Below, piece by piece: positions 31,238 to 54,332 of a stretch of 64,000 nucleotides of DNA; position 1 is the stretch's first letter; each line of letters begins with the position of its first letter. Made by a program: the position numbers and the translations under genes. A model generated the notes under the pieces. It saw nothing but the letters and a program-made list of their open reading frames with translations. It was not told where the DNA came from and made no database searches. Origin of the DNA: Polaribacter sp. (GTDB lineage Bacteria; Bacteroidota; Bacteroidia; Flavobacteriales; Flavobacteriaceae); contig DYMN01000005.1 in the NCBI GenBank assembly GCA_020740485.1, positions 1-64,000 of the forward strand, read 5' to 3'.

Positions 31238-31312
31238 GCCCTTGTAGTTCAACGGATAGAATAGAAGTTTCCTAAACTTTAGATCTAGGTTCGATTCCTA
31301 GCTTGGGTACCA
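31238..31312 (+). tRNA. tRNA-Arg (anticodon CCU), acceptor stem imperfect
   Basis: The 75-base sequence folds as a cloverleaf with encoded CCA (31310-31312). D-stem GTTC/GAAT, anticodon stem GAAGT/ACTTT with loop TTCCTAA and anticodon CCT at 31271-31273, and T-stem CTAGG/CCTAG with loop TTCGATT are all sound. The anticodon reads AGG arginine codons. The acceptor stem is unusual: G1.U72 wobble, three C-G pairs, then U5.U68 and U6.U67 mismatches and G7-C66. It is either a functional but weakened isoacceptor or one starting to decay. Confidence 0.88.
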
Positions 31313-52389: not shown

Positions 52390-52710
52390 TTATCTAAGGG
52401 CTTCTTCTAATTTTTCTACATACAATGATTTAGGAGCCACTCCCACTTGTTTGTGAAATATTTCTCCGTTTTTGATCAAAAGAACGGTTGGAATGTTTCT
52501 GATGCCATAATCAGCGGCGTATTTTTGATGATGGTCTACATCTACTTTAGCAACTATGGCTTTCCCTTCATATTCATTACTAATTTCATCCATTATAGGA
52601 TGAATCATTCTACAAGGTCCGCACCAAGCAGCCCAAAAATCAACAAAAACGGGTTTGTCTGATTTTAATACTAATTCTTCAAAGTTAGCATCTGTTACTT
52701 CAATTGCCAT
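52390..52710 (-). CDS. trxA: Thioredoxin
   Basis: A 106-aa cytoplasmic thioredoxin that reduces protein disulfides. The active site is WCGPC with Cys30 and Cys33, and the cis-proline is in NIPTVLLI. Length is normal and there is no signal peptide. A perfect -7 element lies 53 bases upstream; the gene is monocistronic because of the terminator after it. Confidence 0.97.
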   Translation of the reverse strand: MAIEVTDANFEELVLKSDKPVFVDFWAAWCGPCRMIHPIMDEISNEYEGKAIVAKVDVDHHQKYAADYGIRNIPTVLLIKNGEIFHKQVGVAPKSLYVEKLEEALR

Positions 52711-52762
52711 AATGTAAAAGTTTTAATTTTATTGGATTAACGAGTTGAATTTATTGTGGGTG

Positions 52763-52770
52763 CAAAGCTA
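52763..52770 (-). promoter_or_regulatory. -7 promoter element (TAGCTTTG) for trxA
   Basis: Perfect TAnnTTTG followed by C on the minus strand, 52 bases before ATG 52710. Confidence 0.65.
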
Positions 52771-52918
52771 TTAAAAAATAAGAACTACGAAATAGGTTTG
52801 TATTGAATTTTATGATAGTTGAATTTTATTTTTTTATAGTGTTGATAATCAATTTGTTTAGATTTTAAATATATTTGGATATATATAAAATTAAATTTCC
52901 TATTTCAAATAATAGTAT

Positions 52919-52926
52919 TATTTTTG
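52919..52926 (+). promoter_or_regulatory. -7 promoter element (TATTTTTG) for metK
   Basis: Perfect TAnnTTTG. A start 5-7 bases beyond it (about 52932) puts the riboswitch-like aptamer at the very 5' end of a metK leader of about 147 bases. Confidence 0.65.
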
Positions 52927-52936
52927 TCCCACTTTT

Positions 52937-52981
52937 CAGGGAAAAATTTGGCTGATTGCAACCCTTACAAAATGCTAAAGC
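52937..52981 (+). ncRNA. SAM-II-like riboswitch aptamer in the metK leader
   Basis: The segment fits the H-type pseudoknot of SAM-II riboswitches. P1 is AGGG (52938-52941) with CCCT (52962-52965). The loop carries ATTTGGC then GATTGCAA directly before the P1 3' strand, as in known SAM-II RNAs (TTTG..C and TTGCA). A loop segment TTTGGC (52947-52952) pairs with GCTAAA (52974-52979), the hallmark 3' element, with A-rich ACAAAAT between. It lies about 100 bases before metK, whose product makes SAM. P1 is short (4 bp), so confidence is held below certain. Confidence 0.72.
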
Positions 52982-53078
52982 AGTATGCTATCATTTGCCA
53001 TTACTTTTTTCTAAAAGACAATTTTAATTTTAGTTTTAGCGTTTATTTAAACCTTAAACTTTAAACTTTAAACCATTT

Positions 53079-54332
53079 ATGTCATATTTTTTTACATCGG
53101 AATCCGTTTCCGAAGGCCATCCTGACAAGGTAGCCGATCAAATTTCAGATGCTTTAATTGATCATTTCTTAGCTTATGATTCCAATTCCAAAGTGGCAGT
53201 GGAAACATTAGTTACTACGGGTCAAGTAATACTCTCCGGAGAAGTAAAAACTGAAACTTTTCTTGATGTGCAATCTATAACACGCGACGTCATCAATCAA
53301 ATTGGTTATACCAAGAGTGAGTATATGTTCGATGGCAATTCGTGTGGAATTTTATCCTCTCTACACGAACAAAGTTCAGACATTAACCAAGGAGTGGAAC
53401 GCAGCGAACCGGAAGAGCAGGGCGCAGGCGATCAAGGAATGATGTTTGGTTATGCCACCAATGAAACCCAAAATTTTATGCCGTTGGCTTTGGATATTGC
53501 CCATGCTTTGCTAGTAGAATTAGCCTTTTTGCGTCGAGAGAGCAAAGAGATTAAATACCTCAGACCTGATGCTAAAAGTCAGGTTACTTTAGAGTATTCT
53601 GACGACAATAAACCTTTGAGAATTGATACCATTGTCGTTTCAACTCAACACGACCCGACTGATGAACAAGGAGAATTGACTTCAGAAAGAATTAAAAATG
53701 ATTTAATTCAATATTTAATCCCTCGAGTAGAAGCACGCTATCCGCAATATGCCCACTTTTTCAACAGCGGAATTAAATATTATATAAATCCAACCGGAAA
53801 ATTCGTTATTGGAGGACCTCACGGAGATACAGGTTTGACCGGTAGAAAGATAATTGTAGATACCTATGGTGGAAAGGGCGCGCATGGCGGTGGTGCATTT
53901 TCAGGCAAAGACCCCAGTAAAGTAGATAGAAGTGCCGCTTATGCTACGCGTCATATTGCCAAAAATTTAGTAGCTGCCGGATTATGTGACGAAGTACTGG
54001 TTCAAGTGAGCTATGCTATAGGAAAAGCTGAACCTACGTCTATTTATGTAAATACATTTGGGACATCTAAAGTGAATTTATCGGACAGCAAAATTGGTAT
54101 AAAAGTGGCTCAATTGTTTGATATGCGTCCTTATTACATAGAAAAAAGATTGAAATTGAGAAATCCGATTTATGCTGAAACAGCAGCTTACGGACACATG
54201 GGCAGAAAAAATGAAGTAGTGTCCAAAACTTTCAACAAAGGAAAATTCAATGAGAAAACGCTGGATGTTGAATTGTTTACTTGGGAAAAATTAGATTTTG
54301 TAGCTACTATAAAAAAAGAATTTAATTTGTAA
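53079..54332 (+). CDS. metK: S-adenosylmethionine synthetase
   Basis: MetK makes SAM from methionine and ATP. The 417-aa protein has the opening [19 protein letters not shown] (about 7-25), the ATP-loop [15 protein letters not shown] (about 117-131), and the P-loop-like [21 protein letters not shown] (about 248-268, in parts) followed by [19 protein letters not shown]. It is slightly longer than the E. coli enzyme, as in other Bacteroidota. The leader holds a SAM-II-like aptamer, which would give feedback control by the product. Confidence 0.97.

Follow-up and report, generated by a model that had tools for sequence, protein, structure and literature searches.

The window, a 64,000-nt stretch of Polaribacter sp. 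contig DYMN01000005.1 (positions 1–64,000), carries metK on the forward strand at 53079–54332. The gene encodes a methionine adenosyltransferase of 417 aa (TIGR01034, 507 bits; cut-off, 309.4), and its ATG at 53079 was checked in the letters. A scan of the window with Rfam at gathering scores returned two matches, a tRNA at 31238–31309 and a forward-strand SAM-II aptamer of the long-loop type (RF01726) at 52932–52988. The aptamer scores 53 bits with cmscan (gathering score, 44), with an E-value of 2.6e-7 over the 64-kb window. Upstream on the same strand lies TATTTTTG (52919–52926), a −7 promoter element TAnnTTTG of the Bacteroidota primary sigma factor. The original prediction was that the metK transcript begins with a SAM-II-like riboswitch. 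Covariance model, conservation, gene context, and promoter position agree with it, and its positions for the −7 box, P1, TTTGGC, GATTGCAA, GCTAAA, AGCAGTATGCT, and the ATG are all correct. The covariance model that it named, RF00521, gave no match at E ≤ 10 within 52700–53200, which sets the window apart from the alphaproteobacterial SAM-II family; RF00521 is the older model, and the match came from RF01726.

P1 pairs AGGG (52938–52941) with CCCT (52962–52965), as placed by the Rfam match, the letters, and alignment A1 of relatives' leaders. The P2 pseudoknot joins TTTGGC (52947–52952), read from the letters and conserved in the columns of alignment A1, to GCTAAA (52974–52979), whose columns are invariant there, through six pairs, one of them G-U. 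The word GATTGCAA (52954–52961; letters and alignment A1) we take to be the ligand-loop word by analogy with known SAM-II structures. We likewise take the RF00521 architecture to be P1, a U-rich strand, a TTGCAA loop, and GCUAAA, in the same order as in the window. P1 occurs across alignment A1 as GAGG/CCTC, GTGG/CCAC, and AGGG/CCCT, which are compensatory changes, and the window's AGGG/CCCT differs on both strands from GAGG/CCTC, the form commonest among relatives. The covariation sought in related leaders is therefore present in P1, and it says little about P2 because both P2 strands are nearly invariant. Judged by its sequence, the window carries a real SAM-II riboswitch, ordinary as an aptamer, that would bind SAM as its family does. 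The small hairpin AGCA-GTA-TGCT (AGCAGTATGCT, 52979–52989) of the original prediction is present as letters, but folding of the leader 3′ of the aptamer does not surpass that of shuffles (z −0.36). The TGC of this hairpin fits better as the beginning of the anti-aptamer strand described below.

The position of the promoter was examined across 78 leaders. An exact TAnnTTTG lies 5–45 nt 5′ of the aptamer model in 71/78, where 200 mononucleotide shuffles gave 2.8 expected and at most 8. Of the 75 occurrences counted, 68 fall at −20 to −11. A further 22 held-out leaders have the box at −12 to −21 in 20 cases. Because the sigma-A box of Flavobacterium psychrophilum is placed at −12 to −5 in the available text of the source (PMC9723704), transcription is predicted to start at 52931, one base before the model start. 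The aptamer is therefore predicted to be the extreme 5′ end of the mRNA. From the predicted +1, the window's metK leader is 148 nt, which is long by comparison with the median of 24 nt given for F. psychrophilum in that text. Five Rfam cis-regulators were confirmed as expressed in that species (PMC9723704).

RF01726 was found at 53 places in 52 of 60 genomes, the window's own genome included with one copy. Scores span 45–73 bits, so that the window's 53 bits fall in the lower part. metK lies 3′ of the aptamer at 51/53 places (30/31 and 21/22). Both exceptions are in one genome (G007), where the aptamer precedes an O-acetylhomoserine sulfhydrylase-like gene (L004) and a small membrane protein followed by a MetH-like homocysteine methyltransferase (L132), as the names were read from sequence. 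Named metK loci, taken as the best 80 of 595 so that clade frequencies are biased, match a model built from 30 aptamers in 47/80 cases, and 20 of the 80 were re-scanned with Rfam. The labels of the matching loci among these 80 are Flavobacteriaceae, Weeksellaceae, several Bacteroidales families, and Sphingobacteriaceae; no model match came from the 5 loci labelled Chitinophagaceae or the 8 labelled Prevotellaceae. One leader (L033) that matches our own aptamer model and falls below the Rfam cut-off was kept among the 78. Clade labels for leader groups were assigned by hand. The original prediction noted that SAM-II is best known from Alphaproteobacteria. The case is less unusual than this implies, as RF01726 is described as the SAM-II of Bacteroidetes and marine sequences, with long loops, in the accessible text of Weinberg 2010 (PMC2864571), SAM-II in Bacteroidetes is already mentioned in the part seen of a 2007 paper (PMC2258182), and metK is its usual partner in the genomes searched.

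Leaders set side by side show that words complementary to the aptamer recur 3′ of GCUAAA and change along with it. Examples are GATTTGGC with GCCAAATC (L015), GATTTGAC with GTCAAATC (L023, L049, and L058), GGAAGGATTTGA with TCAAATCCTTCC (L078), ATTTGTATT with AATACAAAT (L088), and ACTGATTGCA with TGCAATCAGT (L079). As a test, in silico duplexes between the downstream leader and the 5′ half of the aptamer, from GG to TTGCAA, were compared with dinucleotide shuffles, which were used throughout except for promoter and terminator counts (mononucleotide). Platform length was limited to 140, 90, or 70 nt depending on the test, and a fixed 190-nt stretch was used for the G007 place without metK (L132). 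Over the 78 leaders, the mean z is −2.26, with p < 0.05 in 48 and the remaining 30 missing that level. Controls gave mean z −0.27 (p 0.056) for the 60 nt upstream, +0.07 for 33 metK leaders that the model does not match, each entered twice and paired with a random aptamer, and 0.00 for reversed leaders. By group, 18 Bacteroidales-type leaders have mean z −1.97 (11 below −1.64) and 57 leaders that are neither Bacteroidales nor Sphingobacteriaceae have mean z −2.39 (39 below −1.64); the signal of the 3 Sphingobacteriaceae leaders is not significant (mean z −1.44, p 0.13). At the two places in G007, a strong anti-aptamer strand accompanies the sulfhydrylase-like gene (z −3.55), and none was detected in the stretch tested before the membrane protein gene (z +0.98).

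Specificity was assessed with a duplex matrix of all aptamers against all leaders, double-centred and tested by permutation. With row and column effects removed, native aptamer–leader pairs are 2.88 kcal/mol more stable than swapped ones (−2.88 kcal/mol; permutation sd 0.27; 0/5000), and the excess is −3.03 kcal/mol among 55 dereplicated leaders (0/5000 permutations). Exact complements of at least 8 nt occur in 27/78 leaders, against 5.7 for shuffled sequences and 10.4 (maximum 17) when leaders are swapped. The paired part of the aptamer varies between genomes. The energy-swap rank of single leaders is weak (mean 0.28; 9/78 at ≤0.05), we think because many aptamers are near identical, and the double-centred matrix was used as well. 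Since the anti-aptamer idea arose from the 78 leaders, the 22 held-out places were tested. These come from families of the same 60 genomes and are phylogenetically non-independent of the 78; they gave mean z −2.06, p < 0.05 in 8/22 (14 missing that level), and 1/5000 permutations. Kinship among leaders partly remains in the tests, yet alone it creates no complementarity. Anti-aptamer complementarity in the group is conserved and co-varies with the aptamer. A local anti-P2 hairpin, GCTAAAG...CTTTAGC, was also looked for in the 57 leaders outside Bacteroidales and Sphingobacteriaceae. Six-pair complements occur in 25/57 against 8.5 expected, and the local fold has mean z −1.11.

In the window, the anti-aptamer strand is placed at 52986–53017 (forward strand) on the basis of duplex energy, fold, and relatives, and is predicted to pair with 52932–52960 in the SAM-free state. 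The minimum-energy fold holds 24 pairs between these segments, two of them G-U, with six further pairs inside the loop. The duplex has −15.4 kcal/mol (p 0.026–0.034), or −19.2 kcal/mol (p 0.009; 0.015 with 200 shuffles) when the full 5′ aptamer strand is used. The fold of 52932–53020 reaches −18.3 kcal/mol (z −1.46), which 15 of 200 shuffles equal, and the longest exact aptamer complement is 6 nt. The window's aptamer ranks 3rd of 78 for its leader, and its leader 14th of 78 for its aptamer. Two leaders of the same genus do not exceed shuffles in the duplex test (L029, z +0.43; L031, z +0.35). The anti-aptamer platform is well supported for the group; for the window's copy it is likely, short of certain, because the copy's own signal is modest and the two congeners lack one. 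A possible anti-P2 word, TTTTAGC (53034–53040, forward strand), is complementary to GCTAAA (p 0.025). The signal is weak (p < 0.05 in 8/78 leaders in the same test) and the window's local fold has z +0.63, so a local anti-P2 hairpin is not claimed there.

The low place of the window's 53 bits in the 45–73 range over 53 places, and the two congeners' leaders without an anti-aptamer strand by test, would fit a decayed aptamer that has lost its function. Such decay is very improbable, as both helices and the core words are retained, P1 has changed on both strands relative to most relatives, and the promoter box and metK are intact. We instead favor, with a probability of roughly 0.7, a SAM-II OFF-switch on metK in which the anti-aptamer strand competes with SAM. 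SAM binding and the OFF direction are suggested by the family and by the gene's function. The metK mRNA would begin with the long-loop riboswitch, over its first ~50 nt. When SAM is scarce, the leader would refold during its synthesis so that 52986–53017 pairs with 52932–52960, which would disrupt P1, the ligand loop, and the 5′ half of P2 at once. Bound SAM would instead lock the P1/P2 pseudoknot before the anti-aptamer strand invades, and the strand would stay single-stranded. Abundant SAM, the product of metK, would thereby turn metK off.

Several output steps were considered for this switch. Simple pattern scans detected no intrinsic terminator on the + strand of 52700–53200 and a single terminator-like site on the − strand. 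Such sites are not enriched across the group (3/78 leaders; 2.0 expected from mononucleotide shuffles). A ribosome site inside P2 does not apply, as the last base of P2, 52979, lies 99 nt ahead of the metK ATG, in line with the spacing of about 100 bases first reported. Occlusion of the start codon was also rejected, modelled start-region openness being 0.536 free and 0.550 bound (p 0.25). The suggestion in the original prediction that switching may be unusual is borne out, as no terminator or start-site platform was detected and a co-varying anti-aptamer strand, which it had not seen, is present.

The output that we tentatively propose, at somewhat below even odds, is loading of Rho on the SAM-released leader, rich in C over G, followed by premature termination. 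It is favored because of this composition and because a Rho RNA-binding domain is present in 25/26 genomes, among them all three congeners; the exception is the window's own genome, 85% complete, in which Rho was not detected. Over the first 60 nt of the platform, the leaders together contain 996 C and 508 G, with C > G in 74/78, and the platform minus the anti-aptamer strand and last 25 nt still has C:G 506:304. The 33 metK leaders without a model match have C:G 555:551 from −120 to −25. Some of the overall C excess is not peculiar to riboswitch leaders, because these leaders without a match are also C-rich (141:70) in the last 30 nt before the ATG. The window itself is weakly C-rich, with 14 C and 6 G in the whole platform and 8:6 in the first 60 nt. 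That the leader is more open when modelled as SAM-bound is imposed by the model constraint.

The same aptamer and anti-aptamer strand could instead act on translation, with the SAM-bound pseudoknot or the released strand reducing ribosome loading on metK. This is possible though rather doubtful. Ribosomes would then enter by a standby or S1-type route, as initiation in Flavobacteria does not depend on Shine-Dalgarno sites. The anti-aptamer strand ends at a median of 27 nt before the ATG (platform of at most 140 nt), a review as available classes SAM-II with riboswitches that directly occlude the ribosome site (PMC10907184), and the accessible account of the Sinorhizobium meliloti metA riboswitch has SAM-II controlling a start 74 nt downstream (PMC9373788). 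Against a translational output, start-region openness is equal in the two modelled states, and average complementarity to the start region is absent over the 78 leaders for the anti-aptamer strand (mean z −0.14, p 0.35) and the released leader (mean z −0.22, p 0.15), though 9 and 12 of the 78, respectively, have z below −1.64. An effect on mRNA decay, in which the SAM-free hairpin seals the 5′ end and SAM exposes that end and the AU-rich leader to RNases, is improbable. The window's SAM-free helix does begin at +2 of the predicted transcript, but SAM-bound conditions stabilised the mRNA in S. meliloti, as far as that account goes (PMC9373788). Regulation through an upstream reading frame that begins at an AUG overlapping GCUAAA is highly unlikely. 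That AUG is found in 65/78 leaders, with GUG in 5 more, and an AUG is also close to the SAM-II aptamer of S. meliloti metA; the resulting frames vary from 3 to more than 40 codons and share neither a length nor a frame relative to metK, and the nearby AUG1 in S. meliloti is not the start in use according to the text available (PMC9373788). The upstream frame was rejected on these grounds.

With Rho as the proposed output, the metK switch would resemble the Rho-dependent riboswitches of E. coli, whose leaders present a Rho site once the ligand binds. For metK, this step is proposed from composition. Compared with RF01726 as published (PMC2864571), the window shares aptamer sequence, P1, and phylum and lies above the gathering cut-off; an expression platform is proposed here and none is described in the part of that account available. 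In the alphaproteobacterial metX structure, as given in the accessible text of PMC10907184, the ribosome site lies in P2, whereas P2 here is ~100 nt before the ATG. SAM-II in Alpha- and Betaproteobacteria is mostly linked to predicted terminators in the available part of PMC2258182, and none was detected here. The S. meliloti metA and metZ riboswitches, so far as described in the text seen (PMC9373788), share a distant start and predicted alternative SAM-free folds with the metK leader. They differ in gene, and terminators and a Shine-Dalgarno element act there; neither was detected here.

The openly accessible literature searched, which took in PMC2704228, PMC12121620, and PMC13273304 besides the papers cited above, yielded no expression platform for Bacteroidota SAM-II. 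The aptamer is one more member of its family, and the switching strand is without a description found in that literature. Riboswitch action is little known in Bacteroidota, where initiation does not depend on Shine-Dalgarno sites. There is perhaps one chance in three that much of the phylum (Flavobacteriales and Bacteroidales) shares a single SAM-II platform with a co-evolving anti-aptamer strand and a Rho-loading leader as output. If so, this platform would replace the terminator or Shine-Dalgarno site, the anti-aptamer strand would compete directly with the ligand pocket, and a phylum without Shine-Dalgarno initiation would have a general riboswitch solution. The arrangement suggests that the SAM-II class can work without a ribosome site in P2. 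A concrete co-varying switching strand before metK makes compensatory-mutation tests possible.

In the MetK tree, the window's protein groups with that of one congener (L031), near Flavobacterium and Sphingobacteriaceae. Elsewhere in the tree, further proteins of its family f1 are interspersed with those of named Flavobacteriaceae, which makes a metagenome-assembled genome of Flavobacteriaceae the probable source of the window. The leader of this congener has 345 nt from aptamer to ATG, ~200 nt more than the window's, and carries an inverted repeat, CCCGATA...TATCGGG, near its 3′ end. The metK of another genome of the window's genus (L029, genome G003) shares 66% identity with the window's and occupies a long branch of its own in the tree, through either gene transfer or a misplaced contig. 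A MetK from a metagenome-assembled genome (MAG) labelled Verrucomicrobia (L042) falls inside Bacteroidota, adjoining the window's, and is possibly on a misplaced contig. In three Sphingobacteriaceae aptamers (L033, L041, and L046), an insertion that looks like a hairpin by eye separates the P2 5′ strand from the TTGCAA word, which is a structural variant of the aptamer. Five Flavobacterium aptamers (L032, L036, L039, L040, and L045) have an insertion in the P1–GCUAAA linker with two repeats that are hairpin-like by eye. In a Bacteroidetes MAG, a SAM-I/IV aptamer (RF01725, 53.1 bits; L055:1327–1432) lies 5′ of metK instead of SAM-II, so that another riboswitch class precedes this gene in a member of the phylum.
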